Positions 5,516-34,315 of a stretch of DNA of 64,000 bases are shown piece after piece. Numbering within the stretch: the first letter of the stretch is position 1; each line of letters starts with the position of its first letter. Below the pieces are notes generated by a model that ran no database searches, was not told the DNA's origin, and saw only the letters and a list, made by a program, of their open reading frames with translations. This DNA is from Symbiodinium sp. CCMP2592 (taxonomy: Eukaryota; Sar; Dinophyceae; Suessiales; Symbiodiniaceae). A program made the position numbers and the translations under genes. The stretch lies in contig CAJNDT010001313.1 of NCBI GenBank assembly GCA_905221615.1, positions 310,001-374,000 of the forward strand, given 5' to 3'.

Positions 5516-5586
5516 TCCACACACTCGTTTTGAGGGTTGGATCCTTGGGGGCTGGATCAGGGGGGTTTGAAGGCCAAAACCAATTT
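5516..5586 (+). repeat. Left terminal inverted repeat
   Basis: It begins TCCACACACTCG. The reverse complement of the right end begins TCCACATGCTCG. The shared core includes GGGTTGGATCC and GGGGGCTGGATCAG. Similarity fades after about 50 bp, with a weaker match (CCAAAACCAA) to about 70 bp. Confidence 0.88.
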
Positions 5587-6429
5587 CCTCAATAGTGCAG
5601 TTCAATATACCGATTTAAGGTTTCAAGCTGTTGTAGTATTAGCTTAATTTATGTATTTTATTAGGAATTTCAGTACCGGGGGCACGGCCGTTGACCAAAA
5701 CATTTTAAAGCACACTGGGAAGCCAGCGTGAGGAAACCCTTTTTTGCCAAACATTTTTGCATTTGTCCAAGCCGGATGTATTGAGCGATCACGTGCCACT
5801 GCTTGGTTGGCTTGGTTGGCTTGGTTGCTTGGTTGGCTTGGTTGGCTTGCTTGGCTTGGTTCGACTCGCCCTACCCATCCTGCACGCCCCAGCTCAGAGT
5901 GGTCTTGGAGACCGCTCCAGTCGGGCTCGGACCACGTGAGCAATGGGTCCTTGATCCGTGCGGGACAGTGTCGCTGGCCGGGCGCTGGGGATTTACTCTG
6001 TGTGCTGCTTGCCTGTTCAGCCAGGCGGTGTGTCCGCCGCAGGGTGAAATGCACACAGATTGCAGGGAAGGCCTTGCTAATATTAAATACTATGCCACGT
6101 ACCCACACCACGGTCGAAGTATTAACTTCGATCACTGCTGCTTGCCGGCATGGCCCCGCATGGCATCTTATGCTGTGCCTCATTGACAGGTCTTCAGTAA
6201 CCGGCGCGTCGCGCAGCGATTCCGGTGCACTCGATGACGAGCATGACCTGTCCTCTTGCGGGCCTGTATGCAGGGCAATTGGATTTCAGCGCTCCGCATA
6301 GGGCAAAGAAGGCGCATACTCAGCAGGGTGACCCCATCTTGGCCAAATGGGGGTGGCATTTAAATAAGAAGTCTCCAGTCCGCATGACTGTCAGAGCACG
6401 CTCGTGTTTGCAAAGACGCTGGGGAGGCC
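5587..6429. other. Left subterminal region, no supported gene
   Basis: It holds a short (TTGGTTGGC)n tract at about 5801-5862. Long open frames exist on both strands over this tract, but they read Trp/Leu/Gly or Ser/Gln/Pro repeats and show no domain. A TATTAA/TTAATA-containing stretch lies at 6079-6125. I see no exon here. Confidence 0.6.
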
Positions 6430-6880
6430 GTTACTGTGTCGGCATGGCATTGCTTGGCTTGGTTGATTCGATTCTGCAGTGGCATCAATTCTGGTAGCAT
6501 CAATCAATTGTGGTAGTCAGCATGGCATTGCTTGGCTTGGTTGATTCGATGCTGCAGTGGCATCAATTCTGGTAGCATCAATCAATGTCAATGGTGGTAG
6601 TCAGCATGGCATTGCATGGCTTGATTGCTTCGATTGTTGCGGTGGCATCTGATTCGATTTTGCGGTGGCATCAATTCTGATACCATCAGTTCTGGTAGCA
6701 GCAACTGTGGTAGTCAGCATGGCATTTCTTGGCTTGGTTGATTCGATTAATTTTGCAGTGGCATCAATTCTGGTAGCATCAGTTCTGGTAGCATCAATTT
6801 GTCAATTGTGGTAGCAACAATTGTGGTAGCGCTAATTGTGGTAGCATGATTTGCGGTAGTATAACTATTGTGGTAGCATC
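6430..6880. repeat. Subterminal tandem repeat with nested AATTGTGGTAGC units
   Basis: About four degenerate units of roughly 80-110 bp (near 6443, 6520, 6604 and 6714) share CATGGCATTGCTTGGCTTGG, TTGATTCGATT, GTGGCATCAATTCTGG and CAATTGTGGTAG. The last unit breaks into short copies of aattgtggtagc. The first CAATTG hexamers of the element occur here. Confidence 0.8.
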
Positions 6881-7101
6881 AATGGCAAGGTCTGCCTGGC
6901 ATGTTTTGACAGAGCCGGGGGGGGGGGCAGGGCTGGCATGAAATTTGCATTTTGCCAGGTGAAGTCGTTTCAGAAGGCATGTGAGTGATATTTGCGCGGA
7001 AGGCTCAGTGAGTGTGTGTGTGTGTGTGTGTGTCAGCTTGCTTGGTGATTGATTGTGAGCCCCTTGTAACCTAATGCTGCAGTTCTGGCTCAAGTTGTGC
7101 T

Positions 7102-8114
7102 ATGTCGAGTGTGGCCCTCCAGCATCTCCCTGAGGAATTGTGTCTCGAGGAGCAGGGCCAGGATCTCCGGAAAGCACAGCAAGCAATCTACTTGCTCTAT
7201 TTGCTCTGCCCGAGAAAGGCTGGTGATCTTGTGACACCTGCAGTACATTTCAGACAATTTCCAATTGAGAATAATTTGCTACCTGACATGTCATTGTTTC
7301 AATGCAACAACATTTGAGGAGATCTTTCAATCGGGCAAGAGACGGCATCAACAAACCAGAAGCCTGGATTCTGTCAGCCTGTAACAAGAACGTTAGAGAG
7401 CACTTTGGCAAAGATTGATGCAGCCCTTTTTTTGCGCTTAACCTTTCATCATTACAATTCCGTGTTCATTCGAGGCACAATCAAAGCTTGGGGATAGTAT
7501 ACAGCCAATTCGATGTCGGGAACTACAGCAGCAAGAAAGCAGACGCCTCAACGACGAAAAGTTCCGGTGACTTGGGGCGAGGCAAAGACGAAGAGGACTC
7601 GGACGATTGGGGACGCAAGTGGAAGGACCCCGAGAGAAACAAGAGACCACGAACCGGCTATTGATGCTACTGATGATGTGAGCTCTATTGACAACCCGAG
7701 CTCTTCGGCAGCTGCTTTCTGCTCCAACACTTCGAGGTCAGTTTTCCTGGGCGGCAAAACCTACGTTTGGCCGAAGAGAGTGGTGATCGTTGGTTATGGG
7801 GTTGCCCAACATGGAAATCGTCCATCACGTCAGATGACAAGATGACAGACTTGTTGGAGAGGTTGGACAGGGAATGTAACTTTTCTAACAAATGGGAGGT
7901 TCGCTTGCAGCAGTCAATGCGCATGTCGAAGCTTCATGACATTTGTACATTTTTCATTCATTTCAGTTTCACTCAATTGACAATTGAGGGCAGTGACAGT
8001 GACAGTCATGGATGGAAGCCAAGGGAGGCCGAAGGAGGAAGGTTTGGCAGAGAATGTGGCCTATACCAGCATATCATGGCACAGGTGCCTGGTCGAACAG
8101 GTGTTGCTTCATGA
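7102..8114 (+). CDS. Unknown multi-exon gene (model approximate)
   Basis: Several stretches look coding but their joins are not fully resolved. ATG 7102 opens MSSVALQHLPEELC... to about 7222. A short exon near 7319-7410 reads ...DGINKPEAWILSACNKNVREHF. A charged exon near 7498-7665 reads ...GRGKDEEDSDDWGRKWKDPE.... A third frame at about 7780-7945 reads ...DDKMTDLLERLDRECNFSNKWEVRLQQ.... A last piece at about 8000-8114 ends in TGA after a Ser/Asp/Gly-rich stretch. A GC-donor intron at about 7411-7497 keeps phase. No domain is recognised. The gene lies first in the + strand series of the giant element. It may be partly decayed, because stops lie between 7666 and 7690. Confidence 0.45.
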
Positions 8115-8497
8115 ATCGAGTTGTATAATAATTAATTTTAATTTTAATAAATAATTCACCCTACTGACCGAGGTGTATCGTCATCCCGCAGCGCTCAAGA
8201 CGCTCCACTTCATCCTCAATTTTCCCGACAAGTTGCTCAGGCTTCTCGAGTCTTTGAATGCTGAAGGTCTTGGAGGTTTTTTTTAGGTTCAGGGACTAGG
8301 ATAATTATAACCCTCCTATGTGGTCCTTCAATTGTCAGGATCTGCTGTTCGGCGGGATGGCACAGGACGTGTGCCATGATTGCGTTGGTCATGGCTCTCT
8401 TCCAAGTCGCTGTGCTGAATTGACTCATTGGTCCAGGTGACACTCAATTGTCTAGTTTTTGTAGGTATCAGCTGTCAGTGCAGGTCTGTGGCATCGA

Positions 8498-8857
8498 ATG
8501 CGTCGCATGGTTCGACACTTTAGTCCAGAAGCACAGAAACACAGATCACAGGGCCATCGCTGCCGATCAACAGCACATTATCGACTTCGCCAATGGCAAT
8601 CACGTGTCGCTGAGCAGCTTCAGATTTTCGAATGTTGTTTTGAGGTTGTAATATGTAAATATTTAAATGCAATCCATGGTTCTGCCAAAGTGTGCATCAG
8701 GAAGCAGAAGCATCTCCTGCCGTCCATTGGTTGGTCGTCGGATGAATGGAAGACAGCATTGCAAAATGCTTGGAACACATGGACCGACCAATTTGCAGGG
8801 CAGACTGATTGGGCTTCCATTCAGATGTGCCTGGACTCGAATTCCGCATTGATTTGA
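8498..8857 (+). CDS. Small hypothetical protein, 119 aa
   Basis: A single open frame from ATG 8498 (a second in-frame ATG at 8507) to TGA 8855. The first half is rich in Arg, His and Gln. The second half, with DEWKTALQNAWNTWTDQF, looks like an amphipathic helical protein. An AT-rich stretch at 8644-8690 in the middle could be an in-frame intron, but no phase-matched GT-AG pair is clear. No family is recognised. It ends 61 bp before the next gene. Confidence 0.4.
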   Translation: MRRMVRHFSPEAQKHRSQGHRCRSTAHYRLRQWQSRVAEQLQIFECCFEVVICKYLNAIHGSAKVCIRKQKHLLPSIGWSSDEWKTALQNAWNTWTDQFAGQTDWASIQMCLDSNSALI

Positions 8858-8918
8858 TTTGCAGCCTGCCCTGTAGTGCCAACACGTACCACTTTGACTC
8901 AGGAACTTGACAACAAGA

Positions 8919-10350
8919 ATGGTCAAGGACAAGCAGGAACATCCCGTGGACACACCTGCCAGGACAGTTCAGAAGCTTCAGAAGCGAAATCAGAAGACGA
9001 AGTCAAGAGGAACTGCTGCAGCAGCAGCAGCAGCTGGGAGCAACACTACATTTTCGCTTCAGCTTCAAGAATAAATAATAACATTTCAGTCACAATTGAC
9101 ATCCTCAATTGAGTGTGTGTGTGTCGTCTTCAATGCAAAGCATTTGAGGTGCTGCCAGATGCCAAAAGAGCACGAACTGCTCCGTGTGAGATCCCGGAGA
9201 CAGATGTCGATGACACCACAACAGGGGGTGGTGAACCTGCATCCTCCAGTTCTGCTACTCCGGCTTTTGCCAGGCCACCAGTGCCCGCTCCAGAGTGGCT
9301 TCCTTCAGTTTGGACCAATGATCCAAAAGCATCACCAGCAAAAAAAACAAAAGCCAGGGCAACAGCATCAACAGACGAGCCAGGGGCAGGACCAAAAGCA
9401 GGAGCACCACCAAAAGCAAGACCGCCAGCAAAAGAAGGGGCATCAGCAGAAGTAGGGGCAACGGCAAAAACAAAGCCAGCACCTCTTACGAAAAGCATGC
9501 CTGCAAAGCCGAAAAAGCCGGCTGCAAAGCCGCCAAAGCCGCTATCAGTGGTTGAGGTTGATTCTCCAGAGGGTGTGCCGGAACCGAAAGATCCGCCCAA
9601 GTCTCGTCCGTTACATCCAAGGGATGCACGTCTGGCAGCAACACATCCAGTTCAACCTGCCTTTCCTCCGACGGCGCCAGCAAACCCAACACTTCCGATG
9701 ATGACGGCATGTGAGATGGCTGTTGGGGAATGCTTTCAGACATTCCTAGGTGGTGGTGCTGCACTGCCGAGCAACAGTTCAGCTCGATCTTCAATTGAGA
9801 ACATGGTGTCGAGTTTGGCGAATGCTGTGTGGGAGAGGCTGCAGCCAAAACTTGTGGAACTTCAATTCATGTCAACACTTGAGCACAGTGTTCCACTGGC
9901 ACCTGCCGGTGCGCTGGCGGACCTCACAGCGTGGAATCCGAGTCTTCCTGAGAAGTCGGAGCCCTACAAGGCTGAGCAGGAGCAAATCGACCAGGAGGCG
10001 GAAGAGGAGGAAGCAGAGGAGCACGATGAAGAAGTAGCCCCTACCATCGACAGAGACCCTGTGATGCAGCCTGGCAGGGATTTGCATGCAGTTTACAGTG
10101 TTGTATTGTTTATATGAAACAGTTGAGGCTGGAGATCTTGGAGGACTACTATATCCCTGAGGATGTCAAGGACCAGTTCTTCCATGTGGCCACCCATCCC
10201 GATCTCCCATTGCAGCGCCAGGTCAAGCTCATGCCGCTTGAACTGTTCATTGATTCATTGTGCACCATTACATCCCTTTAAGACTCAGACTCACATGAAT
10301 CAATCAATATCTGTAGTGCCAAGGATGAACATGCTGATGCGCCATGGTGA
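8919..10350 (+). CDS. Unknown Ala/Pro/Lys-rich protein with acidic tail, 420 codons, 4 exons
   Basis: Model: 8919-9068, 9149-10090, 10123-10259, 10317-10350, giving exactly 420 codons before TGA 10348. Introns are 80 bp (GA-AG), 32 bp (GT-AG) and 57 bp (GT-AG). The N-terminus is basic, then comes an Ala run (about residues 34-40). Residues about 75-170 are Ala/Pro/Lys-rich and probably disordered. A more ordered stretch follows (...MTACEMAVGECFQTFLGGG... SSLANAVWERLQPKLVELQF), then a Glu-rich segment. The exon LRLEILEDYYIPEDVKDQFFHVATHPD... is too short to stand out on its own. No catalytic motif is seen. In-frame coding-like sequence continues past the TGA, so a further exon is possible. Confidence 0.6.
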
Positions 10351-11134
10351 GAGACAACAGAGTACGAGCTGGCTGAGACAATGTGTGGGCAACTTGTCCT
10401 TGTTCGGGGACAGTGCAAGTCCTTAAACTCAAATGTGGTGAAGTAGTGAGCTTGTGCTGGCTACAGGAAACGAAATGTCCCAGCCACACCCGCCATCCGC
10501 TTCGACAGAGCGGCCGCCACTGGAACTGTTCGACCCGACTTGAAGTGAGCTGACTGCCCGGCTGACTGAGCTGAAAGCTCCAATGAGATGTTGAGCTTTC
10601 ATCCATGGCACTTTCTGGTGCTCGTACACTAAGTACCATACTCAGCTGGTGATTTGGTTGAGTGAATCTACTCAGCTGATTCCAGCTCTTCTGATTGGTT
10701 CATTCTCCTCGACTCACACAGACTCTGACAATTCCGTGTCAGTCAGTTTGAAGTTAATTCATGCTATCACCCAAGCACACACACACACACACAGAAACAC
10801 ATAATATAATATCATATCATACAGCTTCCAATGTGCTCAGGTGCTGGAGTTCCTCGAGTTGCAGGAGGCAGTGACATCGATCTCACTGGTGAGTTGTCGA
10901 TGAAAATGTTGTGTTAGTCAGTCGTCTGGTCATAGATTCATGTTTTTGCAGCTGTTGGTGTCAAAGTTCAGAACTGCTCCGAACAGTAGTTACGCTTTGG
11001 ATTCCCATGCTACTGGATGAACACTTTCACAATTGAGTCTCAATTGTCACAATTGCAGCATTTTAGAATTGAGAGGTGGCTGCTGAGGCCAAACGCAAAT
11101 AGCATTTTTTCGCATGTGACTTTTCCTGGTGGCG
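10351..11134. other. Intergenic, possible exon debris
   Basis: 10357-10445 reads in the frame of the preceding gene as ...YELAETMCGQLVLVRGQ... and 10470-10543 reads a Pro/Ser-rich stretch, but both have unresolved joins. A CA microsatellite is at 10772-10796. 11024-11060 carries three CAATTG in 37 bp. No complete gene is supported. Confidence 0.4.
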
Positions 11135-12153
11135 ATGGAGTGTCCTTTTTGCAAGCGTTGCCTGGGTCATTCATACTGGAGGAAATCCCAGTGGTACCAG
11201 AAAACAGCTGAAACGCCAATTCGGCACTACTTCAATTGTTGCCGTGACTGTGGCAATGTCCTGGAGAACCTGTATGTGGATCCACGTGAAGTGCGGTCGG
11301 CAACACTATTTGTGGCCCAGATGATTGATCTTTTGAGAGCAGATTCAGGCCAACTTCAGCGCAGGTTTCGGAGTGTGTTCCAGGGCTTGGCTGACTACCC
11401 ATCACAATTTCGAAAACACATATCTCACGGAGGCTGCCTGTACTACAATGGGCAACCGCATGATCCTGGGAATGCGTTATACACAATGGCGTTGGAGTTG
11501 CTTCTGCCTGGATTTCGCAGAGCCTATCCTTGGGGCGAAGAGAAACTTGGAGACCTGGTTGAGGGGCTTCTTTGGGTATGGTCTCCGGAATTTTTTGCCT
11601 CGGAGGAGTTGCAGCGCCAGGCGGATGGAAGCATTATAACAAGAACATCAAGTGGCTTCTACACTGTGCCGAGCCGGCAATTACACGAGATTTGACGATG
11701 ATCGGATTCTTGCATGGGTGGTTTTCATCTGTTTTCATGCTTTCGAGAGCCACTGGCTACACACAACCGTTCTCAAAGGTGGAGGAGCTCCTTACTTTTC
11801 GGGATTGGACCCCTGAGAACGCTTGCCCAAACAAAAAAATGCGGGCAGAATTGGAAGCAATGGCTCTGAAGTTGGACGAGGTTCTGATGCAGTCGTCAGA
11901 GTCTGAGGAGTCACTGGACCCTTATCATTGTAAAGCAGATGAGGATCTAGAGGATGAAGACCCAGAGGAAGACAAAGTTCCCGAAAAGGAGGATATAGAG
12001 GATGAGGACGAAGACGAAGCCCATGCAATGAGTGATGATGAGCCAATGTACAGACATGAAGTGTGTGACGAAACATCAGACTCAGAGAACGAATACTTAC
12101 ACATGCTGTTGGAACAGTCCTCTGAATCCGAGGACGAGCACGATCCGGCCTGA
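11135..12153 (+). CDS. Zinc-ribbon protein with long acidic tail, 320 codons, 2 exons
   Basis: Exons 11135-11575 and 11632-12153 joined by a 56-bp GT-AG intron in phase 0 give 320 codons and remove a frame break. The N-terminus starts MECPFC and has CPFCKRC, then CCRDCG about 30 residues on, a possible zinc ribbon or treble clef. The middle (residues about 55-220) looks globular, with many Leu and aromatic residues across the splice (...VEGLLW|HYNKNIKWLL...). The last third is Glu/Asp-rich with Ser-Glu-Ser motifs, as in chromatin or nucleolar proteins. The role is unknown; nucleic-acid or protein binding is a guess from the zinc motif and acidic tail. ATG 11135 has a purine at -3. Confidence 0.65.
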
Positions 12154-12334
12154 AACTCTGACTCCTCGAATCGGTGTCGAGTCCTTTTGCCAATTAGGTC
12201 AGTGACACTGACAATGCGCCTACCTCTGCCTTTGTGACTCAAAACACACAATTGATTTATTGTGATGACAGTTTCGTGCACAATGAAGTGACAGTGTTGT
12301 ACACAATTAATTGAGAGTTTGCTTGACTTGCAGA

Positions 12335-12485
12335 TTCCTTATAAAAACCTGATGGTGCTGTACAACTCTATGAACCATCAGAGTGCAAAAGGAAACAGTG
12401 TCATGGGCACAGCAAAGTCATCCAGTGAAACTTTGCCTGACAAATCTGTGTCGGTGCATGAGTGGGCAACTGGCATGGCACATGT
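12335..12485 (+). repeat. Dispersed internal repeat, copy 1
   Basis: It shares ctgatggtgctgt, accatcagag, gaaacagt, catccagtg, actttgcctgac and ggcatggcaca with 14655-14825. The 3' half also matches 30920-31015, 33755-33840 and 33985-34075. In the sense frame it reads TLPDxSVSVxxxxxGMA. Confidence 0.7.
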
Positions 12486-12701
12486 TGCGGTTGAAAGCCA
12501 AGCCAAGAAATGAACAATTCTTCAATTCTGTCAGGTTGTTTGCGACAAAGAGAACCATCACCATGCAGCCGCCTCAGTCTTGAGTGAAAGCCTCTTACAT
12601 CCAGTCTTGGAATGGTTTGCCTGCTGTTAGAATTGTCTTGCTTCAGCTGCAGCCATTGTCCCCAAGATCAATTTGGTCTTTATTAATTTTGATTGACGAT
12701 C

Positions 12702-12938
12702 ATGTCGAATCCCAAGAAGGAGGGCTATGTGGAATCCCTTCAGTGCTATGTGGACGAAAAAAGGTGCCTCAGCTGCATGCTGTTCCACTTTGAAAGCTAC
12801 CTGCCGTCATGGGACTACAAGCGCTTGGAGATGATCTCGCAAGACTGCAAATGTGATGATGTGGTTTTGGCGGAGTCCAAAGGCAGTGTGTCAGAGGAAT
12901 CTGCAACCTGCAAAAGCCCGTTGCCGGTCAAGCACTGA
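12702..12938 (+). CDS. Small Cys-rich protein, 78 aa
   Basis: ATG 12702 (context atcATGtcg) to TGA 12936. The protein has six cysteines, with YVDEKRCLSCMLFHFE and QDCKCDD, possibly a small zinc-binding fold, and a Ser/Glu-rich tail. No family is recognised. It could be the first exon of a longer gene with the next short Cys/His exon. An upstream in-frame GTG/ATG does not improve the model. Confidence 0.5.
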   Translation: MSNPKKEGYVESLQCYVDEKRCLSCMLFHFESYLPSWDYKRLEMISQDCKCDDVVLAESKGSVSEESATCKSPLPVKH

Positions 12939-13020
12939 TGTTTCACCGATGTGATTCGCACAGGACAAATTTGAATTAGTAATTATTCTGCCATTTGCAG
13001 ATCACTAGCTGCAATTGCAG

Positions 13021-13172
13021 GTTCCAGAAGATTCCAGCAAGTTTCGATTGGGGGAAAAGCTGTGGGAAACCTGAGCTATTGCCGAAATTGTCCTTTGTCC
13101 AGTGATGCTTGTGGAAATGAATTGCATGTCCATGAATTGTGTCACAATTGTCGTGTCTCAGATCAATTGTGA
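13021..13172 (+). CDS. Short Cys/His-rich exon candidate
   Basis: After a good acceptor (gcaattgcag|G) the frame reads about 50 codons to TGA 13170, with YCRNC at its middle and CGNELHVHELCHNC near its end. The C-x2-C...C...H-x-H...C-x2-C spacing looks like a treble-clef or RING-like zinc site. It has no ATG of its own, so it should be an internal or terminal exon. A downstream frame (13162-13310) that reads ...ALRTGRFYIWSKEGSCTV... may be its continuation. Confidence 0.4.
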
Positions 13173-13304
13173 AGCGCTGAGAACTGGACGGTTCTACATC
13201 TGGAGCAAGGAAGGATCTTGCACAGTAGCAACTCAATCGTTGATTGAGTCAGCGGATAGCTCCAGTGACAATGGGCTGGACAGTTTCAAGGAAACAGCAG
13301 AATC

Positions 13305-14345
13305 ATGCAAAGGGGCCGTAGCCGGAGCAATTCGCCCTTGCAGCCGCCGTTGCCGCCGCCGTTTAATTATGATAATTTCAATTGGCGTCGCTTTTCCAGG
13401 AGCAGATCCAGCAGCCCTCGAAGCCCCTTCCCCCCGTGGTCCGAGTCCAACCGATCCGACACGCCGGAGAGACTGCGCATATATTACGGAAGAAACAGGC
13501 TTCGTTTTTACAGGACGAATCTCAATGGTTACGTTTTGTCCGGCTGGGAGGAGGAGCGCATGAAACGACTCAGGGCAAACAATCCGCCAATTTTGCCAGA
13601 GGAACGCCCCATATTGATCGATCATGTTTTACATTATGATGTCAATCGTCCTCTTTGGAGGTATGAGTATCCGTGGCAACCATTGCGAGGGCGAATCAAC
13701 CGCCTTGACCGCCATGACGATATGAACAAACAAGAGGGTGCAATGTCGGTACACCATCTAGTGAATTTGCAAGATGGTTACTATTGGCTTCATGTGACTC
13801 ACGAGTTGCTCACTGTGAACTGCCTTTGCAATTTTCGGACAACTTGCCGTCGTGCTCGCAGATGCTGGGTTATGAGTGAACCGGAGCTGGTCAGGAGGTG
13901 GATGCGGCACTGCCTCAGGACACTTGTTCACTCTCAGAGGAATATCGATTATGTTCAAAGGCTGGAAAGAGCCGACAGCTGGGTTGTGCTCCAGAGCAAC
14001 ATGTGGGACGAAGCACAAGAGTACGGGGTACAGTTTGCTTCATATATCATCCACGCAAGTCGTCGCAGCTATTTCCATCGGAACGAGCACTTTTCCCTGA
14101 CCCGCCCGACCCATCAGATTCTGCACATTCCTGGCACGCGCGGTCGGCGTGTTTTTCCTCCAGATGAACCGCAGGAAGAGCCTCAGACAGATCCTGACAG
14201 TGTGGCTGAGAGAGAGCTACGTGCACATCGTCCGGAGGAAGAGCCTGACACAGATCGTGACAGTGTGGATGAGACAGATTTAGATGATGGATGGCGGCTC
14301 TGGCGGGAAGAAGCCAGACGACTGCAAGTGAACAATGACAATTAA
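13305..14345 (+). CDS. Arg/Ser-rich N-terminus protein, 346 aa, unknown
   Basis: An open frame from ATG 13305 to TAA 14343. Residues 1-60 are RS- and Pro-rich (RGRSRSNSP, RSRSSSPRSP), as in splicing-related or nuclear proteins. Residues about 65-270 look globular and rich in Arg, Trp and Tyr, with CLCNFRTTCRRARRC near residue 175. The C-terminus carries two copies of a Pro/Glu/Asp unit (EEPQTDPDSV and EEPDTDRDSV). A donor at CAA|GTGAAC near 14331 could splice further. The basic RS region suggests RNA or nuclear localisation, by inference only. No transposase signature was recognised. Confidence 0.6.
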   Translation: MQRGRSRSNSPLQPPLPPPFNYDNFNWRRFSRSRSSSPRSPFPPWSESNRSDTPERLRIYYGRNRLRFYRTNLNGYVLSGWEEERMKRLRANNPPILPEERPILIDHVLHYDVNRPLWRYEYPWQPLRGRINRLDRHDDMNKQEGAMSVHHLVNLQDGYYWLHVTHELLTVNCLCNFRTTCRRARRCWVMSEPELVRRWMRHCLRTLVHSQRNIDYVQRLERADSWVVLQSNMWDEAQEYGVQFASYIIHASRRSYFHRNEHFSLTRPTHQILHIPGTRGRRVFPPDEPQEEPQTDPDSVAERELRAHRPEEEPDTDRDSVDETDLDDGWRLWREEARRLQVNNDN

Positions 14346-17494: not shown

Positions 17495-17826
17495 TTCTCA
17501 ATTTGTAATTCGATCAATTCAGCCAGCTGCCTGATTCGTGACCAAAACAATTGTGCAGATGCCCATTGAGAGTTGCATGTGAGCTTCACTGTCATATTCC
17601 ACCTTGCAGACAAGTTGAAGAAAGCAGCAGACGTGGTGTTGCATTGCACAGTCATGTGGTTCCATGATGACTGTGTTCGGAGAAAGAGTCTCAGTCCTAT
17701 CCTTGTCTCCTTCTGAATTACAACTGACAAGTGGATGAAGGAGTTGTGATGGTGGTCTCGGCTGTGACCAAATACATTTGTCATAATTCCAACCAATATT
17801 TGATGTATTCAACACCTGCAAGACAG

Positions 17827-22624: not shown

Positions 22625-22913
22625 CAAATTTTGAACAACTGTATATAGGATCAAACAAGTTGAATTCACTACTTGTGCTTTTTTGCAGAATTGCAGCAGC
22701 ACCGTGCTCAATAACAGCTTCTTCCTTTGCCATGTGTATAGTTTATGTTGGCTTTTTTTGCATAGGGGCAAGCACGATTGTGACATTCATGTCAAAATTC
22801 CAGTGCGGTTCTTTGGGATGTTACTTGTTCAATTGCTTTGCCACCACTGTCAGTGAGGTCAGGCCATGTGATGTCCTCCATGAGTTGTGCATATCTTGGC
22901 TCAAGGCAGAAAC

Positions 22914-23507
22914 ATGACTTTGGCTGAAGAACAGCAATGGGCTTTGGAAGCAGTGCAGGCTCTACCGCCTACTTGGCCGGAGGTGGAAGGAAACCAAGTC
23001 AGTGATTGCTTGTTACATTTGTTGCAGTGTGACCTGCCATTGGCCTGGTCTCATCGATTGCTTGTCTTCAAAGCCAAGACCATGTTGGCGGCTCTCATAG
23101 CTCCGTCACCCCATGATGTGCCAGCAAACAATTCTGACGATGATGATACACTTCTGACAGCTGATTCATTTCAATTGAGGTGGCATTGTGTCAGTGCCTT
23201 CAGAGCAATCATCCTGATGTGTTTGTCCTTTGAACAAAACCGCTGTGTTGTTTGTTAAATCATAACACATAACCATAATAAAGTGTTGCTGCCCCACTGA
23301 GGTCACTACGTGCTGGAGGATCTGCAGGTGCTCTGTGACTTGGAGATTGACATTTCCGATTCACGGTCAACATGGCAACAAGTGAGGACTCTCTTGGCTG
23401 ACTGCTTTCAGTCAAATTCAATTTCGCAATGTTCACACCCGGGCCAGAAAGGGTCGGGCAAAACCAAAAGTGAGATTCGGCAGTGGTACAAGGACAATAC
23501 TTACTAG
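22914..23507 (+). CDS. Hypothetical protein, 158 aa, 2 exons
   Basis: Exons 22914-23187 and 23302-23507, intron 114 bp with GT-AG in phase 1. The coding part before TAG 23505 is 477 bases (159 codons, including the ATG). It reads a helical N-terminus (TLAEEQQWALEAVQAL), an Asp run (NNSDDDD) and a second helical part (VLEDLQVLCDLEIDISDSRSTWQQVRTLLADCF), and ends IRQWYKDNTY. No family is recognised. The spliced frame bypasses the stop at 23256. The start ATG has a purine at -3 (aacATGa). Confidence 0.55.
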
Positions 23508-23730
23508 CTCCCTTGTTTCTGCTAATACGGTGCGGACCAACACGGCTCGGAATGGCTGCAACAAATAAAAAGCTCTGTGCTTTTCGGAGCTTTCTGTACT
23601 GTAGTCAGCTGTATGTCCTGCAGTGTTGCTTCAACTTTGAATTGTCAATTGTGTTTGCCTGAATTGCTCAAGGGTTCGGTTTGAAGTACCATTGCTACAG
23701 GAACACCAATTGCCTGTAGTTGCAGAAGCC

Positions 23731-25800
23731 ATGGCAGGGCTTATTCCCCGACGCCACAAGCGGGCCCGTCTTGCGGATTCCAGGAATGGCAATGGACAGC
23801 ACATGGTCATGACAGGCCAGATGCAGCCGACCATGCCCCCAATGATGTTTCCAGCTCATCCTTACATGACCATGAACCCCGGCACATTGATGGGCATGAA
23901 CCCGGGTATGAACATGCCCATGATGCACCCATGCACTGGCATGCAGAATATGTCGATGCCCATGCACGGTTCGGCAAACCCGGCTGCTGCGATGCAGGGC
24001 AATCCGATGATGAATGCCCAGATGAATATGATGCCAGGATTCTCCCCCCCCCAGGTGAATGAGGTGGATGACGATTCGGAACAGGAAGAGGAGGAGGAAT
24101 CCGACAGGGCCACAGCACAACATCAGCAGGTGGTTCCGGAAGTTCCATCAGCATCGGGCTCGGGAAATGAAGTGCCTCAGGGCCCTGTGACAGTTCCTGC
24201 TCATCCTGTGCAGCCCCTCCCACCACCCACAGTCGGCTATGTTTACAACAAGGGGGAGGATGCCACAATCACAGGGAGCACAACAGTATTGAAAGGTCTT
24301 CCAAGGACAAGGCTTGTGGCCAGCTTGGAGAAATTGTACGGTGAGCTGGAGGCGGGACAGGAATTCCCATTTGTGACACTTGTTTTTCTTTTTGCATTTG
24401 ACAATTTGTCTAACATGATGAGAAGATGCTATGAACGCTGAGGCTGGGTACCTCAGTCAATTGAGCCAAAGGGGACTCTTGGTACTTCTGTGGATGCTGA
24501 CGAGGCTCAGGCCAAGTAGCCGGCTCTCTTATCTCCGTGACTTGTCAGATGTTATTGCCAGGACACTATAGAGGAAATGTCATTTTGGGTCAGTGAATGA
24601 TCATGCCATTACGGGTTGTTCGTTTGGTCGGTTTTTTCAGCTTTATTATTCATAAGAACATTCAATTGAGACTTCATCTTTGGCTGTGCAGGTGTGATAT
24701 CCTACGAAGACTTGCACATGCGGTTCCAAACGGCATTCAATCGTGTCCGACGGTGCGAACCACAGTTCATGGAACAGTTGGCCTCGAAGCTGCCCCTGAA
24801 TTTGACAGACGCTGCAATAGAGGAGATTGCTCGCCCTCTGGGCTGGCAGGACTCATTCATGAAGCCTGTCAGCATCTGTTTTGCGAAAGCTCCAACCTCA
24901 GGTGACGTTGGCATGATTTTGCAGGCAGGGGCGAAAGCAACAATGCCGCCAGCACGTGCCCGCCCAGCACCTGTGGCAGTAAGTGCAACTGCAAGCCCAC
25001 CACCTGCACCGGCAAAGGCGCCTCTGCCGGCACATGCCAAGGCTGTCACACCTGCCCCGATCCGGGTCCCACCTGTGCAGCACCCCGGGTGCCCCCTCCG
25101 CCCAAGCAGGCCGGCCATGCAGCAATGCCAACAATGCCTTCGGCAGAACCATCAACAAACACATCCCCTGCTGTGGCTCCCAAGGCTATGCAGACTTTGA
25201 GCAAAGCAATGCCAGCGATGCCCCCCGCATCCCCTGATCATGTTGTGCCTCCAGCCAACCCTCCCACAATTGAGCCCGAGACATTGGAGCATGCTGTGGT
25301 TGAACCAGTTGTGGCAGCAACACCCCCCGAGCATCCACCCGCTCCCGATGCAGCAGCCGGACCCCCAGCCACCCTTGCAGCTGGAACAGTTCAGCAGGAC
25401 CAGCAAGAGATCCAAGCAGAGTCAGAGGCCATTGAGCTTCCCATATGTCTCATTTGCCAGGACGGAATGGATCCCACGAGTGTTGCTTGCTTCAGCTCCA
25501 TCTCCAGTGTAGACCTTGTGAGTGTTGTGATGTCCTCATTTGACAATTTGTTTTGGTTGCCAGGACACCATGGATGAGGGGGAACAGGTCTTGCTGCAGC
25601 TCCACTGCGGGCATTGGTTTCACGAAGACTGCATCCTGCGCTGGGCGGAATCGACAAACAGCAGACCGGGAAGTCGTTGCCCACTACGTTGCTCGATTCC
25701 GGAGCCGATGGACGTGGATGAGGGAAATCGCAATGGTCAGGAGGCCGACCATGGCTTCGAGATCCTGGAGAACACTGAACCCAATACAATTTTTGCTTGA
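23731..25800 (+). CDS. RING-H2 finger protein, 561 codons, 5 exons
   Basis: Exons 23731-24340, 24423-24536, 24692-25065, 25110-25460 and 25564-25800. Introns are 82 bp (GT), 155 bp (GT), 44 bp (GT, tentative) and 103 bp (GA), all ending AG. The sum is exactly 561 codons before TGA 25798. The N-terminus is Met/Pro/Asn-rich (many MPM and NPGM units), then acidic. A globular part follows, spliced as ...SYLRVISYEDLHMRF.... Next is a long Ala/Pro-rich linker. A RING-H2 lies at the C-terminus: CLIC, then CGHWFHEDC, then CPLRC, with the second Cys to third Cys spacing normal only after the GA-AG intron is removed. RING-H2 proteins are usually E3 ubiquitin ligases. The RING is complete, so activity is plausible. 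ATG 23731 has a good context (gccATGg). Confidence 0.78.
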
Positions 25801-25915
25801 GTGGCAGTAACTCAGTAGATCAATTCAGCAGTTGCACAGCATTTCATTGTCTTGCATGGGTATGGATGGCACATTAAAGTGACAACCAATTCAATCCTAA
25901 ATACAATTTTCACAG

Positions 25916-26133
25916 GGAGCCCAAAGCACGCCAATGGCTGTTGCACTGATGACGATTACTGGATGCTGCATTGCCGATTGCGGCTCATTTCAGTTCCGAC
26001 ACAAGGCTGTCTTCAAATCCGTGAGGGGTTCGCGGAACAAGGGCGAAAAAAAATTGCAATTGCACTCATGGCCAATGGCTTCACAAGTTCTCATGTGGTT
26101 GTTCGGTGCAGACATTTTGTCATGTTTCTGTAG
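25916..26133 (+). CDS. Possible orphan exon
   Basis: After the acceptor ttttcacag|G the frame reads about 70 codons including EGFAEQGRKKIAIALMANGFTSSHVVV-like sequence, ending at TAG 26131. It lies between the RING gene and the large gene and has no clear partner exon. A second frame is also open. No function can be proposed. Confidence 0.3.
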
Positions 26134-26292
26134 CTTCAATTTCGCCTGGGATGTTCCACCTAAATAATAAGAGGGACATTTCCCCCCCACGTTAAGGCAA
26201 TGTGTGAACTGTAAAATTACATGGCTCAACATTTGTGCAATAGGACTTTGACATTTCAAATCGCAAAGTTACAGTACACATAATATGTGACC

Positions 26293-29200
26293 ATGGCTGA
26301 GCCATGTTTCCAGCATGTGCCCGCAAATGCAGACTCTTTGGTCATGGAAGGTCTTGCTGTGGCTTTTGGCCCGGTGGCATATCGCAATCCTGATGATTCC
26401 CAGCTGTACTGGGATCTGCAATATGTCATGGACAAGCTTATGGAGAATGGCGAGCAAAACGCTCTGACGAAACATGCCAAAACACTGAAAGACCTTTGCT
26501 TGTCCGAGGATATCCTGACAGAGAAAGATTTGCATTATCGTTCAATGAACCTCAGGCCACGAACCTCAACTCTACAAGTTTAAATTATGAATTCCTTGAC
26601 AGTACATGTATGCACACACATACTCAAATGCTTGTCAAAAGTAGTCCTGGTTCAGGACAAGTATGTTGAATTGCAATTGTGCCAGTACCATGCTGCTGAT
26701 GATGTTCTTTGCAAAGCTACTGGACAAAAGCCAAACTGCAGCCAAGTCGACCTACCTCTGGGATATGTTCCGGAAAATCTCAGCAGAGGCTACAACCCAG
26801 GCATACGCGGCTGGACAGCATGGCTTGAGCATCGATGTGCATGGCACTGCTGGGAACCATGTCCTCATGTTGCAGCCCAATGGAATGGTCTTGGGAGTGC
26901 AAGACTTTCTTTCCTCACTACATGCTTCAGTTCTGGAGTCTTGGAGAAAGGTTTGGGGCAACATGTACTCAGAAGCTGTACTGTCAGGCCCTTGGCAGGG
27001 AGAACTTCTGTTTTTGGATGTGCTCGCTTTTGTCCTCAATGCTGCGAAGGTCCGTCGATCCAGAAACATGTCACCCTGGAAAAACCATAGCTTGGCTGCT
27101 CTGCAACAATTGCGAGCCACTGTCTTCCAGATTTTGCATGGAGCTATGGCCCACAGCATTTTGGAGCATGTAGAGGCAAACCAATCGTTCGAGAGAGCAG
27201 TTCCTTCACGACGACTGTCAGGGCGAGGAAGGAGGTTGGCTGTTGGGTAAGGTTGATTTCTGCATTCAGGAGTCCGGGGGCATCATTTCATTTGAAATCA
27301 ATTTGTCAAGTGAGTTAAGTTATGAAGTTGCAGTTGCATTGCTCGCAGGTCTGCTGATGATGGAGAAGACCCTCGCCGGAAAATGTCCGTTCACCGGATT
27401 TGGGACTTCATTGAACAAGCACGCAACACAAAGGTCTCGATGATGAAGTTGGCTGAGATCAGAGAGACGGACAGAGATGGCGGTGTCAGGCCTGGCTCTG
27501 TTTCTCTGTGGCAGCGGAAGATGCTGAGCTTGTACAAGCAAGAAAGCTCCTTGTCATTTCTCAATGTTCGGAAGCTGACCATGGTCACTGATTCTTCCCA
27601 CCACAGCACGAAAGATTGGCTTGTGAGTCTTTTTTACAACAGTTCTGCCAATTGTTTTGCCCATGCCACTGCTCAATTTGTGAACTCGGCCAAAATCCTT
27701 CGCCCGGGACAATATGACCTTATGCCGGAAGTCGAACGTTTGGCGGCACGTCGAGAAATTGAGAGACTTTCGACCCTGAAGTTTTTCCAGGCTGTCAGCA
27801 GTCAGTGCTTCAAAATCGCCGGGTTGCAAATAACCGATTTCCAGCCGGACTCTCAGCTGCTGTCCATGTTGGCCCCATTGAACCCGGGAGACCAAGCAAC
27901 TTTTCGTGGTGCAGAATGGGAAGTCATCCGTACAGAGGATCCAGCCACAGTGCACAGTATGAGTTTTGACGCACAGTCTGCAGACATGATTCCGATGTTG
28001 CACATATTGATGGATCAAGGCAGCATCGGGTGTGCCGCCAACGCATTTTCCTTGGACCAGAACTTGCTCGTACATTACAGTTACGACAAAATCCATCGCC
28101 TGCATAGGGATATCAAGGGGCCGCTCAGAGGACAACTCCACAAAAATGTCCTCCTAACGACGTTCATGTGGACCCTGAACTACAAGCCCTTCGGCTCTGG
28201 CGGCTTCTTTGCAGAGAAACAGGACGCACTCGAAAGTTTTTTGCAGTCCAACAACGAGGCAAGGCTTTTCCAATTCAGTTCTCAATATTGTACAATTCAT
28301 ATAATAATTAATATAGTCAGTATTTGTTTAACCAATACAATTATTCTAGTTGTACCTCAGCCAGGAAAGCGAAATCTTCGACAAGTACAAGACTCGCATT
28401 GCTTTCGAGTTTAACATGAGGGGAGCCTCAGACCACGATGTTTGGACCGCGCTTCCGGAAAAAATGACATCCTGGAAAGTCAAGGGGGGTTGCACGAAAC
28501 CGTCTCGGTGGTTTTCGTGGAATGAGGCTGCTGCGGAAAATCTGTCCGAGTTTACTGCCTCCCGAATGGTTTTGGAGTGGTACCTGTGTTCCGAGCAAGG
28601 TCCGGATGACATCAACCAACCTCAATTGTGTTTCAAAGAAGCTAAAGGACTGAAACTGGCCTATCTGGGCCATTCATGGGTGACTTGGGAGAACGCACAC
28701 ATTATTGCACGGCTGCAGGAGCCTTGCTGGGACTACTACAGTGCACAACTCCACGAGATCAAAACTGTCGAGGACGCTTTGACCGAGACACAGGTCATGA
28801 GCACTAGCTGGAACCAGCACTGGAGTTTGAGAGGAATTGCGGCAATCATGGTTTCCGAAGAGACTTGGGATGATTTGCTGTTTTGGGTCCAGGAGTCTGA
28901 AACATTCATAACGAAAGTCATGGATTATGGCTTGGAGATGCTGGCGAATCGGTGTGCAACATTTTCCAAGTATGGCTCCCCTCCGGAGTGTTACACCCAA
29001 GTGCTGAGTGGTCCTTCTCCCCATGCCATCAATGCCATGAAACTGATGAAGACAGATTGGCTTTGCTTGCAAAGCCTGGAATGCAGTGGCGCGCCTAAGG
29101 CTCGCATGCTGAGTGCAGATCTCAGGTTGACTTTTGATCCTTGCATGCGCTACACTGCCCTTCAGTTTCAGTCAGTTGGCTGGCGTTTGAATTACCAAGC

Positions 29201-31454
29201 AGGACTAGATTTGTTGCGCTTTCTCACAGCCACATTTCCGGACAGCAAGATCGTCGAGGATTGTCACCAACTCTTACGAACAGCCACAGGTCCGAAAGCA
29301 CACCAAAAACTCACGGGGACATGTATCCAGCAGCTGCTGACCAACTCCGACATATTGGAGTGTCGGGGCATGGCTCACCCTGCCAAGTTGAGCAGAGAGA
29401 AGTTCCTGAGGTACTGGCACAAGGCCAAGGATGATTTCAGAGCCAATCCAGAATTTGTTGCCGCACATCACAAGCTCCCCAAGGAAATGTCGAAAGTCCT
29501 AGCAACCAAAACGTGGGACACCATTTCTGAACAACAATTGGTTGTTTCTGCAGCATCATGGTCCTTCCTGCGCTACTATTCGCAGAACAACTTGAGCACG
29601 CAGAACGTGAAATTGAAGGCCTGGGGTGAATCAGCAAAGTAGCGGTCTGTGATTGAATAGCTCTGTTCTAAGAACAACATGTTCCTGAGGACGGCTTGTG
29701 GGCTGTGTTTGCCCAGTTTGGGCAAATCATTACTTTGCGCAATGTGGAAGAGACCTACATTGTTCTGGGATCCTTCAAATGGGCAGTGTTGGCATGGCGG
29801 TTGTCCGAAGTTCATGAGGGCGGCAGGTGCTCGGGCTGGCAGTTGCAAGTGGAGGCCGGTTGCTCATGGCAGTTCCTTCACAACCCTGAGGAATGGGAAG
29901 CATGTGAAGCCACTCCGAAATTGTCAACACAGGCAGGACTCTATTTCAAAGCCACGTGTGGTTGGGAACCACTTGTGCAAAACACTTTGCGCTCCGGGCA
30001 CAAAAGGACCTTTGCGGAGTTGACATTGATGGCGGACTACTTGAATGTGACACAACCCCACAAGAATTCCAAGAAGGAGTTGTTGAAACAGTGTCAGGAG
30101 TGTTTCGGAGAAGAGTTTGCAGAAGCTTGCCGTGAAGCTGCAGAGTCAGACACTCAGAAGGCTCCTGATGCAGATATGCCTGATGGTTTTCTATCAGCAT
30201 TGTTGGACAACATGGAGCCCTCAGATAAACAGGATTTCCAGGACTTGGAGAAAGCCCTGATGCGACAGGAACAGCAGGCCGAGCAACAACGTTGGCAAAA
30301 CATGTGGGATGAGAAGGTTGCAGAACAAAAGGCACCCTGGCAAGACCTTCCAGTGAGTTTCTGAGCTAGGCTTAGACTCAATTGTTGTGATTCAAATGTG
30401 ACTCAATTGTGACTCAATTGTGATTCGATTGCAGGCCAAAAGAGCGAGGAGAGCTGTGGCAAAAGCCAAAGCAAAGTCAAAACCGTGTGCCAAAGCAAAA
30501 TGCAAAGGCAAGGGCAAAGGAAAAGGCAAAGGCCGTGGAAAAGGCAATGGGTTTGGAAGAGGCACAGCTTTGGGCTTGCAAGGGCTGGCTCGCAGGCAAG
30601 CAGCGTCACGAAAACGCAAGGAGCAGGTGCTCGAACAAATGCCCGGACCAGCAGTGGAAGAAGATCCAGATATCGCTGAACTCAAAGAGGAGTTGGAAAG
30701 CCAGCTGTTGGACATGAATGTCATGGACGATCGAACAAATCCTGATTCATTGCCGGCAGAGCCTTGTGTCCATGCTCCCAGTCCAAGAGAGCCCGCCCCC
30801 TCACCGGAGCCTTGCGCCCATCCTCCCAGTCCACACACTGGTGAAGGAGAGCCCGCCCCCCCGGCGGAGGAGCCCTGTGTCGATGCTTCCCGTCCACACT
30901 CTGTGCTTGGTGGTGCCGGGGTCGCACACGAGGAAACAAAAGTGCAAGCACAGCCATCCAATGGGACCTTGCCGGATCCAATATCCGGGCCAAGGGACAG
31001 TGGAATGGCACAGGCCTCGTCCTCGAGCGGATCAGCCCCTGAGCAGGTCCTTGATGATGCTGCACATCGTGGCCAGGCATCGCAACGTGCTCCGCGCGAG
31101 CATGGTCCACACTTGAATAACACTCCCGACTTCCTGTCGGAGTTGGATCCACCCGAAGACTTCAAGTTGCGTCTCAGCTTCAACGATCATCGCTTCAAAG
31201 CCGAGATCATGACAAAACAGTATGTGTCAAGTGAGGGGAAAAAGTCTTGCAGCAAAAGCTTTGCTAACGACAGATCAGACTGGAAGCAAGCACTGGCTCA
31301 AGTGCATCGCTGGGCGTGGACAGAGTGGGAGAAGGCCAAACCTGAAAGGCAACTGCCGCCTCATTGTCAGCCTGGCACTATCCCTGAGGCTGTCCTGGAA
31401 CGCCTTGCCCCGATTATCGACGCAATGCCTCCGCCCACAAAGTATGCCAAGTAG
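26293..31454 (+). CDS. Large unknown protein, 1569 codons, 6 exons (possible transposition protein)
   Basis: Exons 26293-26555, 26686-27246, 27349-28258, 28350-29625, 29673-30352 and 30435-31454 sum to 1569 codons before TAG 31452. Introns: 130 bp (GC, tentative), 102 bp (GT), 91 bp (GC), 47 bp (GT, tentative) and 82 bp (GT). The start accATGg is strong. Exons 1-5 look globular, with motifs such as LSIDVHGTAGNHVLML (exon 2), MLHILMDQGSIGCAANAF, HYSYDKIHRLHRDIKG and LNYKPFGSGGF (exon 3). Many acidic residues in ordered segments could supply a metal site, but I cannot align a DDE triad. Exon 6 starts with a Lys/Gly/Ala-rich, DNA-binding-like tail (KCKGKGKGKGKGRGKG), then a disordered Pro/Ser region containing one dispersed repeat copy, then a charged C-terminal domain. 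It is the largest gene of the element and the best position-based candidate for its transposition protein. Confidence 0.7.
30920..31015 (+). repeat. Dispersed internal repeat, copy 3, inside a coding exon
   Basis: gaggaaacaaaagtgcaagcac, catccaatgggaccttgcc and agtggaatggcacag match the other copies. Here it is in frame in exon 6 of the 1569-codon gene and reads PSNGTLPDPISGPRDSGMAQ. Confidence 0.65.
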
Positions 31455-31998
31455 CCTCTTCAGTTTTTTTTGGTGATAAACACATCACAGGGGAAAACAT
31501 GTCAGCAGGTTGCAGATTTCTGTCAATGTCATGTATGCAAGTATCGTGTTCTTAGCTTCAAGTCTTCGGTCGATTCAAGAAGTCACAGGGAGTGAGTTCA
31601 TCCAGCCGAGTCCAATGTGTGTGAATCTGCTCCTGCTGTCATAGCGGCAACATGTTCGATTCACAATTTTGGCTTCAGCTTGTGCGCAGTTGCTGTTCAT
31701 TCTGTGATTGAGTCTTTACAGTTACGTTGCAATTACAGTTGCTGAATGCCTGAAGTGTGCAATTGAAGATGACATGACATGAATCATGAAGTCTCACCAT
31801 AGTTATGCTGCAGATTGCTCGGGGAGAAAGCGATCAGCAAAAACAAGCCTTCCTGACATTGTGTCCTGTTAGTTTGTGGAATGTGCTTGATATGCCAGGC
31901 AAGCATTGAATCCATTTGTTGCTCAAGTTGGACCAGAGGTATGGTTTAAAGTTATGTGGGACAACAAATCAATGTATTGATGTCAGTGAATCACCAAC
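31455..31998. other. Intergenic spacer
   Basis: AT-rich, with a poly-T run at 31465-31472. No coding stretch of note on either strand. It separates the stop of the large gene from the methyltransferase-like gene. Confidence 0.6.
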
Positions 31999-33352
31999 AT
32001 GTCCAATTTCCAGTGGCCGTGCCAGCATGTGCTGGGATCATCGCTGGTCTTCAGTGGTAGTGCTGGGCCTGTGAAGCCAGCACGCAAGAAATGCAAAAGG
32101 AAAAAGAATGCTGCAGAGTCATTTGAGTTGGGAGGTAGATCAGTGGAGCGCCCGTGTACTCTTCCTGCCTTGAATTTTACCGATACAGTTACAGGAACTG
32201 ATGAAATTGATGATCGGTTTGACACTTGGGTAGAGGACGTCTTCGAGCAAACATCGCGATTGCAATGTTCGCATTTCCTTCCGTTTGCTTCCTTGTCTTT
32301 CTCCCCAAGGCCGGAGTCTGTTCAAGGTGTTATGGGTCACAGATTTTGTTATAATATGAATTTTTCATTAATGTAATACTACATAAACTTATCATCATCC
32401 TCAATTGATCTTGCTGGCCAGGTCCACAGAGCCTTGGTGTCACAGGCTCATGGTTGCAAGGATTTTGGTGCAAAATTTCTTGCGCTACGACCAGGACTTC
32501 AATGTGGGCAGAGTGGCCATGAAATGGCATGGGCTGATTGGATTGGCTTATCCCGCATTGAAGAACCGAACCATCGAGTGTCAGCTGATGTGCATCATTA
32601 GCCGTAGCTATGACAACAGAGCCAAGATTGAAGCAGCTTCAATCGATGTGGGACCCCATCAATGTGCGGGGTTGCTGCAATACATTGAATACTATGCAGG
32701 GAGCGCCAAACTTTCGAAGAAATTGATCGAATCCGGTCTCCGTGGGTGCAGCTTTGACATACTCTACAATGACGAACACAACATGTTGCTGGCGAAAGGG
32801 TTGCGTTTGTTTCTGGATGCAGCCACAGCGTGTGAGAAGAAGGCTTTGCATTGGTGGGGCACTCCGTGCTCTTCTTTTGTCATTATGTGCTCATTTCGTT
32901 CCCAACGTGCTGAAAGCAACGGCTGGGAAGGCGCATGGACTGAGCGGGACTTTGTATTGCAGGGAAATTGTCAGGCCCTTGTTTGCTCACTTGGGATTTT
33001 CCTGGGATGGGCATGTGAGTGCTGCCCTGTGGTGGAACAGCCCCTCAGCTCCTGTATGCCGCACCTCGAGTGTGTCAAAACAGTTCTATCCTTTTGTGGC
33101 TTCGAAAAGACTTGCACCTACATGGGTGCCTTTAACGGAAAGTCAGTGAAGCCCTTGCAACTGTGGCATTTGCCTGGGTTTCATTTTGAGAACCTGGCCA
33201 GGCCCAAACCAGATCATAATGCTTTCATTGGTCTGGTAAACCGAGGCGAAGACGGCCGTTTCACCGGTGTGCCAGCAGATGTACAGGCTAGTGGGGAATA
33301 CACTTCGATGTTCGGGGAAGCAGTTGCGCAGATTGTCCGGAATCTATTGTGA
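31999..33352 (+). CDS. Methyltransferase-like protein, about 413 codons, 2 exons
   Basis: Exon 1 starts at ATG 31999 and reads a basic stretch (PARKKCKRKKN) then an acidic one. Exon 2 runs from 32422 after ...ggccag. Two donors keep frame: GC at 32310 (413 codons) or GT at 32295 (408). Exon 2 has IEYYAGSAKLSKKLIESGL followed by SFDI, as in motif I/II of SAM-dependent DNA methyltransferases. It then has GTPCSSF, resembling motif IV (P-C-x-x-F/S) of C5-cytosine enzymes, and VEQPLSS, resembling the E-N/Q-P/V motif. Target-recognition and late motifs are not evident. It may be a divergent DNA C5-methyltransferase or a related inactive fold. Some dinoflagellate retroelements are known to carry cytosine methyltransferases; here it would sit in a DNA element. 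Confidence 0.55.
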
Positions 33353-33587
33353 CGATCCGCTTCGTCAGCCAAAATACGTTTCATAGCTTACTGAGCTGCA
33401 TGCTTTTTATTATTCAAGCCAATCTGCTGTGACTGGTTTTTGGGGTGTGAATGCTGTGACACAACAGCAACAGCAGGCCATGCAGCAACACAGGTAAAAC
33501 AGTGCGATGACTGATGAGAAGGTTGCATAACAATTGAGACACAAGTCTGATTTGCTTGCAGCCTTATGTCGATGTGGCTGTCTCAGT

Positions 33588-33743
33588 GAACACACTTGGA
33601 GGAACAGAATTGATATGGCTCTTTCAGTGAACACACTTGAGGAGGATTCCTCAAGATTTCCTCAATTCGAATCGTCAACCTTGCCAAGCAATGCCATGCT
33701 GACTCAAGATTTCCTCAACCTTGCAGCAACCTGTTTAAGTTGA
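33588..33743 (+). pseudogene. Short frame with degenerate copies of the right-end protein motif
   Basis: Reads ...MALSVNTLEEDSSRF... then STLPSNAM, ending at TAA 33741. MALSVNTLEED resembles GMAQVNTLEEQ in the next gene. A second gtgaacacacttgg(a)gga occurs at 33585 and 33627. It looks like decayed repeat units of the same protein. Confidence 0.4.
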
Positions 33744-33776
33744 CAGGTTGTTCTGAGCAGTGTGAGGAAACAATAG

Positions 33777-34115
33777 ATGCCATCCACTGTGACCTTGCCC
33801 GATGTGCCCATGTCGGTGCAAGGGGTCAGTGGCATGGCACAAGTGAACACACTTGAGGAACAATTTCTTGTTGACAATTTGGGAGTCACACCTTTGCAGC
33901 TTCTGCCGGCTCTTGCACAGACGTCCTCAGCCTTGCGAAAACCTGTTGGTGTTGCCGGGCTCTCACCCGAAGAGCCATCAAGTTTCCTTGCTTGGGGACA
34001 CAAAGGCCAGCCATCTAGTGTGACCTTGCCCGACGTGCCAATGTCGGTGCAAGGGGTCACTGGAATGGCACAGCTTCCGGTTGCTCTGTTCACACACCGG
34101 CTTGGACAGAAATAA
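33777..34115 (+). CDS. Small repeat protein, 112 aa
   Basis: ATG 33777 to TAA 34113. Two copies of a 20-residue motif, one starting TVTLPDVPMSVQGVSGMAQ (residues 3-21) and one SVTLPDVPMSVQGVTGMAQ (residues 82-100), lie 79 residues apart. The same motif, more diverged, is found at 12.4, 14.7 and 30.9 kb. Between the copies are Leu-rich stretches (LGVTPLQLLPALAQ). It is the last frame before the right terminus. Whether it is expressed is unknown. Confidence 0.45.
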   Translation: MPSTVTLPDVPMSVQGVSGMAQVNTLEEQFLVDNLGVTPLQLLPALAQTSSALRKPVGVAGLSPEEPSSFLAWGHKGQPSSVTLPDVPMSVQGVTGMAQLPVALFTHRLGQK

Positions 34116-34244
34116 TACTACATTTTTTCATGGTTTTCTCAACAATTTTCAGTGTCTGCAAATCTCCAGTTACATTAATTCTGGACAAACCTACCGTGTC
34201 GTAACGTATCCAATAAGTCTTTGTTCAGGTTGACTTCTGATTTT

Positions 34245-34315
34245 GATAACTTTGGTTTTTGCCAAGCCCACTGATCCAGCCCCCGCGGATCCAACCCTAC
34301 AAACGAGCATGTGGA
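34245..34315 (-). repeat. Right terminal inverted repeat
   Basis: It ends ...CGAGCATGTGGA. Its reverse complement aligns with 5516-5586, sharing GGGTTGGATCC and GGGGGCTGGATCAG at the same distances from the tip. Confidence 0.88.

Follow-up and report, generated by a model that had tools for sequence, protein, structure and literature searches.

The window analyzed here, a 64,000-nucleotide stretch of the genome of the dinoflagellate Symbiodinium sp. CCMP2592 (contig CAJNDT010001313.1, positions 310,001 to 374,000 of the forward strand) without any N, contains a 28.8-kb element with inverted ends that is very probably a giant DNA transposon. An initial annotation, made from the sequence of the window, had proposed a single insertion of such a transposon, and the ends, the target duplication, the empty site and the further copies described below all support that proposal. 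The features that delimit the insertion, in window coordinates, are as follows.

5516–34315, + strand: the whole element, 28,800 bp, N-free in the window copy
5511–5515, + strand: left target duplication, TATTG
34316–34320, + strand: right target duplication, TATTG
5516–5583, + strand: left terminal inverted repeat, 81% identical to the right end over 68 columns
34252–34315, − strand: right terminal inverted repeat, with the tip TCCACATGCTCG in the window copy
40395–40399, + strand: the single TATTG of a paralogous empty site

The left tip reads TCCACACACTCG and the right tip, when reverse-complemented, TCCACATGCTCG; the inverted ends that had been annotated are thus present, with 42 of 50 positions identical rather than the approximately 43 first counted, compared with at most 32 when 200,000 pairs of positions were drawn at random from the window. 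TATTG was found on both sides of the element, as annotated, and the proposed empty site held up as well: after removal of the element and one TATTG, the joined flanks aligned with the second copy of the flanking DNA at 98.2% identity over 1,205 columns with one gap column, in an alignment that crossed the junction with 43 bp on its left side. Beyond a variable TATG microsatellite on the left, the paralogy resumed and extended for 1.7 kb at 82.5% identity. The flank duplication as a whole pairs 3464–5515 and the sequence from 34316 onward with 38561–41561, and it is adjoined by a tandem duplication (1–1236 and 2216–3462, 97.8% identical).

We searched for copies in 1,098 Mb of this genome (5,383 contigs), counting ends rather than whole elements. 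A 200-bp query from the left end returned 269 candidates, of which the 40 scored were all 99–100% identical, and one from the right end returned 277, of which the 40 scored were all about 100% identical; 33 of these 40 right-end matches lacked the five terminal bases, where they depart from the window copy, the right tip being mostly TCAATATGCTCG in the other copies seen. Exact-pattern searches gave 110 matches to the 45-bp left tip and 122 to a 38-bp right-end core, with none for the reversed-pattern controls. The initial annotation had made its reading depend on the existence of other copies with these ends, and there are many. At eight left-end loci that we retrieved, similarity began at the identical first base and the flanking DNA differed.

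Pairing of ends, matched by eye from 100 of the 110 left and 100 of the 122 right ends, identified 41 contigs present in both lists, each with a left and a right end on one strand and in the expected order. A perfect 5-bp duplication flanked 34 of these 41 pairs, the window pair included (9 of 11 scored by eye and 25 of the other 30; the seven exceptions lie on C668, C202, C2502, C2557, C2624, C2668 and C3057), and among the 30 pairs, mismatched combinations of left and right flanks agreed in only 12 of 870 cases. The duplicated bases were 84% A+T. Because two of the 34 pairs share both flanks with another pair (C365 with C1942, and C1599 with C1335, on different contigs and with different spans, probably alleles or duplicated sites), the number of distinct duplicated sites is 32. 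The 34 duplicated pairs spanned 4.5–47.6 kb, with a median of 31.6 kb. The two shortest, on C1209 (4.5 kb) and C2979 (8.7 kb), were considered as deletion derivatives and dropped, since both cross 100-N assembly gaps; our check for gaps covered these two, C14 (one gap) and five right-hand pieces (none). The tandemly duplicated flanks in the window and the 100-N gaps within some copies elsewhere might have suggested a segmental duplication or an assembly artefact, but identical tips and matching 5-bp duplications in 34 pairs at 32 distinct sites leave that explanation with practically no weight, and we count it as already refuted.

The right half of the element carries the following genes and domains.

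24692–31453, + strand: gene B, the probable transposase gene, spliced, 1,892 codons with no stop, 5′ limit provisional
24692–25065, 25110–25481, 25564–25794, 26314–26555 and 26656–27246, + strand: exons 1–5 of gene B
27349–28258, 28365–29625, 29673–30352 and 30435–31453, + strand: exons 6–9 of gene B
27349–29625, + strand: transposase core, with D (TDSSHHS), D (LMDQGSIG), RW (SRWFSWN) and E (KIVEDCH)
25110–25794, + strand: RING-H2 finger over two exons (PF13639, E = 1.7e-9)
32423–33349, + strand: 3′ open reading frame (ORF), matching the C-terminal part of the Cladocopium protein P0016 at 41% identity over 235 residues

Exons were joined with a custom splice finder that allowed GT, GC and GA donors, run at a single setting, with a manual correction at one exon end. 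We accept the resulting model of gene B, with its stop codon at 31454, because the codon alignment contained no stop in any of the four other copies, which were taken from the best-scoring ends; because all 18 indels between the C14 copy and the window in this stretch of 6,762 bp fell within its 1,082 bp of predicted introns; and because the protein P0004 (Skav225500) extends to the identical end. The sole indel in the codon alignment was a 1-bp deletion in the C447 copy, which shifts the frame there. Relative to the window, which is common to all four comparisons and makes them non-independent, the other copies had 13 synonymous and 17 nonsynonymous changes, 7 and 14, 13 and 16, and 12 and 14, with a ratio of nonsynonymous to synonymous rates (dN/dS) of ~0.37 for C14. 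In the 3′ ORF, a single synonymous difference separated the window from each of the four other copies. Splicing also revises the gene count, in that the initial annotation's roughly 16 plus-strand genes was inflated by introns that split one gene into several ORFs, those from 24.7 to 31.45 kb being exons of gene B; the RING-H2 finger became visible only after splicing, the raw ORFs scanned having given no Pfam match of weight.

The three acidic residues (D70, D204 and E587) and the RW motif were invariant in the transposase alignment. The predicted core is an RNase H-like D-D-E fold with a Hermes-like helical insertion that separates the second D from the E, and in a structural comparison of a modelled relative, Hermes, a hAT transposase, filled ranks 1–6, although Foldseek alone gave no significant score. 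On the strength of these models, the gene B protein is probably a D-D-E transposase with a hAT-type fold. Searches by sequence found no such kinship. In Pfam at E ≤ 10, the two core exons together with 15 relatives (17 family members) yielded three chance-level names (best E = 0.02) and no transposase, three long relatives had no match at E ≤ 1, and neither set matched a hAT profile such as that of the C-terminal dimerisation domain at these thresholds; Pfam likewise found neither a BED finger nor a hAT dimerisation domain, and a sequence search of the PDB with the transposase returned nothing at E ≤ 10. Transib, RAG1 and P-element structures were not among the rows listed of the structural comparison, which cannot exclude them.

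Where the source is named, the transposase lineage was seen in two Symbiodiniaceae besides Symbiodinium: Cladocopium and Fugacium, the latter through Skav225500, which we take to be a Fugacium gene. In the Cladocopium proteins P0016 and P0017, the transposase is followed by the 3′ ORF within one predicted protein; both were 40–45% identical to the window transposase in the two core exons, and P0016 28% identical over the next exon. Among prokaryote genomes, 58 pattern matches yielded one locus, the 7.8-kb contig JASJEH010000121.1, on which relatives of the transposase and the 3′ ORF lie on one strand, with the 3′ ORF first and with intron-like breaks. Although binned in a bacterial metagenome-assembled genome as Methyloceanibacter, this contig is probably mis-binned eukaryotic DNA. 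The viral contigs searched contained no relative. From these arrangements we conclude that the transposase and the 3′ ORF keep company and that their order can differ.

In the Symbiodinium genome, transposase matches on C160, C202, C654, C1690, C3992 and C5184 were unlike the main group, with frames of 760–773 residues, some with a stop, and perhaps represent an older or sister subfamily. Querying this genome with P0007 uncovered another transposase, 44% identical, with 1,016 candidates, of which the best 38 scored each had an open frame of 950–962 residues. Two copies of this second family (C80:1244500–1274465 and one on C324) had ~30 kb in common, in blocks mostly 96–99% identical; each copy is interrupted by a 100-N gap, next to which segments are repeated. 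They shared a sharp right boundary ending GGGCAATGA, with different DNA beyond it; their left end was not reached within 30 kb. The family in the window is thus probably not alone in its giant size.

The remaining features of the element are these.

9113–10117, + strand: left-hand ORF, free of stops in the C14 copy aligned with it, codon changes 13 nonsynonymous to 0 synonymous
13269–14345, + strand: left-hand ORF, likewise free of stops in C14, codon changes 26 nonsynonymous to 5 synonymous
21788–24340, + strand: probable upstream exons (21788–22532, 22906–23179 and 23673–24340), part of the transposase gene or separate
6438–6883, + strand: left subterminal tandem repeats, part of which recurs inverted near the right end
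33669–33704, − strand: left subterminal motif in one inverted copy, matching 28 of 36 positions at 6515 and 27 of 36 at 6712
17802–18951, + strand: satellite, 174-bp unit, 6.6 copies
20032–21520, + strand: satellite, 205-bp unit, 7.3 copies

The subterminal motif had five matches at a score of at least 25, compared with none for each of 20 shuffled motifs, and the two satellites that had been annotated are both real. The codon changes suggest that the two left-hand ORFs are fast-evolving or unconstrained; a splice model joining this region into a gene A (7102–14345) found no support as drawn, its second exon having indels that sum to 8 bp between copies. The 3′ ORF had no match in a sequence search of the PDB. 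Its EYYAG and GTPCSS motifs are reminiscent of a methyltransferase, with ATRCSS in the Cladocopium relative, and we claim no function for it. Nothing in the window matched Rfam at gathering scores, and a search allowing up to four substitutions showed no relic there of the dinoflagellate spliced leader. Outside the element lie a 53-bp tandem array of ~43 copies (49069–51369) and, in the flank, a long ORF (42710–45631) for a ROCO-like protein, whose matches to Roc and COR-A are weak and fall short of the Pfam cut-offs.

Together, the ends, the 34 duplications among 41 pairs, the empty site, the ~100 near-identical ends and the conserved multi-exon D-D-E gene lead us to conclude with considerable confidence that this is a giant cut-and-paste transposon with the look of an autonomous element and with recent activity. 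The gene B protein would bind the inverted ends and the subterminal repeats, excise the element as double-stranded DNA and join it to a 5-bp staggered, A+T-rich target, and repair of the staggered joint would then produce the 5-bp duplication. We read both the RING-H2 finger and the 3′ ORF as accessory functions that belong to the element, not as host genes recently acquired. A gain in copies would require repair from a sister copy or an effect of replication timing, as in other cut-and-paste elements. That some other enzyme moves the element, with the hAT-like gene as a nested or hitch-hiking transposon, could appeal to the unassigned ORFs of the left half and to the presence of a related transposase in another giant family of the same genome. 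We nonetheless consider it highly unlikely, given that the transposase lies at a constant distance from the right end in the eight copies compared by hand, that gene B shows a purifying pattern, and that transposase and 3′ ORF are jointly present in Cladocopium.

Searches of an open-access library listed no description of this element. The initial annotation had held that no described superfamily fits; this stands at the level of sequence, as far as Pfam goes (Repbase and Dfam lie outside its scope), but not at the level of the predicted fold, which is Hermes-like, nor of the duplication length, since one study describes hAT5 as a hAT group with 5-bp duplications (PMC12730594). By its predicted fold and its duplication, the element resembles a hAT5-type element in its manner of working. 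It resembles Hermes in the modelled RNase H core, the large helical insertion bearing the RW motif, and the inverted ends. A rival in classification only is that this is a genuine hAT5 element that has diverged very far, for which only size and divergence would be new; we consider that possible but rather unlikely, as no hAT profile or PDB sequence was matched and the tips, TCCACA and TCAATA (TCCAC and TCAAT/TCCAT at five bases), depart from the hAT consensus YARNG. The usual hAT duplication, moreover, is 8 bp, compared with 5 bp in 34 of our 41 pairs and 8 bp in none of 30, and hAT elements differ in size from this ~30-kb element with several genes. We use the name "hAT-like" because both sequence profiles and tips fall short of hAT membership.

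The initial annotation's failure to match Polintons (6 bp), KDZ (8 bp) or CACTA (3 bp) elements was borne out by the 5-bp duplications. KDZ (Kyakuja-Dileera-Zisupton) elements are eukaryotic D-D-E elements that can likewise be large and multi-gene, with accessory genes and a large transposase. Among the matches of the 17 family members, however, KDZ and CxC profiles were absent, and duplications are reported as 8 bp for Zisupton and Dileera and 7 bp for Kyakuja (PMC12730594), which makes this identity very improbable. CACTA/EnSpm elements have CAC tips and 3-bp duplications, unlike this element. The CACTA families of Chondrus, cut-and-paste elements with terminal inverted repeats and extra ORFs, are 16–20 kb, smaller than ours, and were called significantly enlarged in a 2019 review (PMC6431247). 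Transib and RAG share the 5-bp duplication, but their CACWRTG tips differ from TCCACA/TCAATA. A Polinton/Maverick or polinton-like virus with a retroviral-type integrase would agree in size class and inverted ends, but a scan of two spliced pieces and of 20 of the 68 listed ORFs turned up neither an integrase nor a protein-primed polymerase or capsid family, and the Polinton duplication is 6 bp (5–6 for Mavericks), against 5 bp here. We find this reading scarcely credible, even though the related Breviolum minutum is reported to have repeats with a Maverick annotation, enriched at chromatin-domain boundaries (PMC11071213).

We see an even chance that a new superfamily begins with this element, its ~30-kb units being moved by a hAT-type D-D-E transposase and carrying a recurrent set of genes: a RING-H2 finger, the transposase and the 3′ ORF. 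These would be giant eukaryotic cut-and-paste transposons, so far seen in dinoflagellates, with at least two families amplified in one genome, and some "Maverick" repeats of Symbiodiniaceae may be such elements. D-D-E cut-and-paste transposons are usually a few kilobases long, whereas this family combines its 31.6-kb median with ~100 near-identical ends in a single genome and a transposase gene that is open in the copies compared. If this reading is correct, dinoflagellates, which have been resistant to genetics, would gain a mobile element of their own, one whose ends are defined and for which there is a candidate enzyme; the family would be a likely source of insertional variation in these organisms; and the Maverick-labelled repeats of Breviolum would deserve re-examination.

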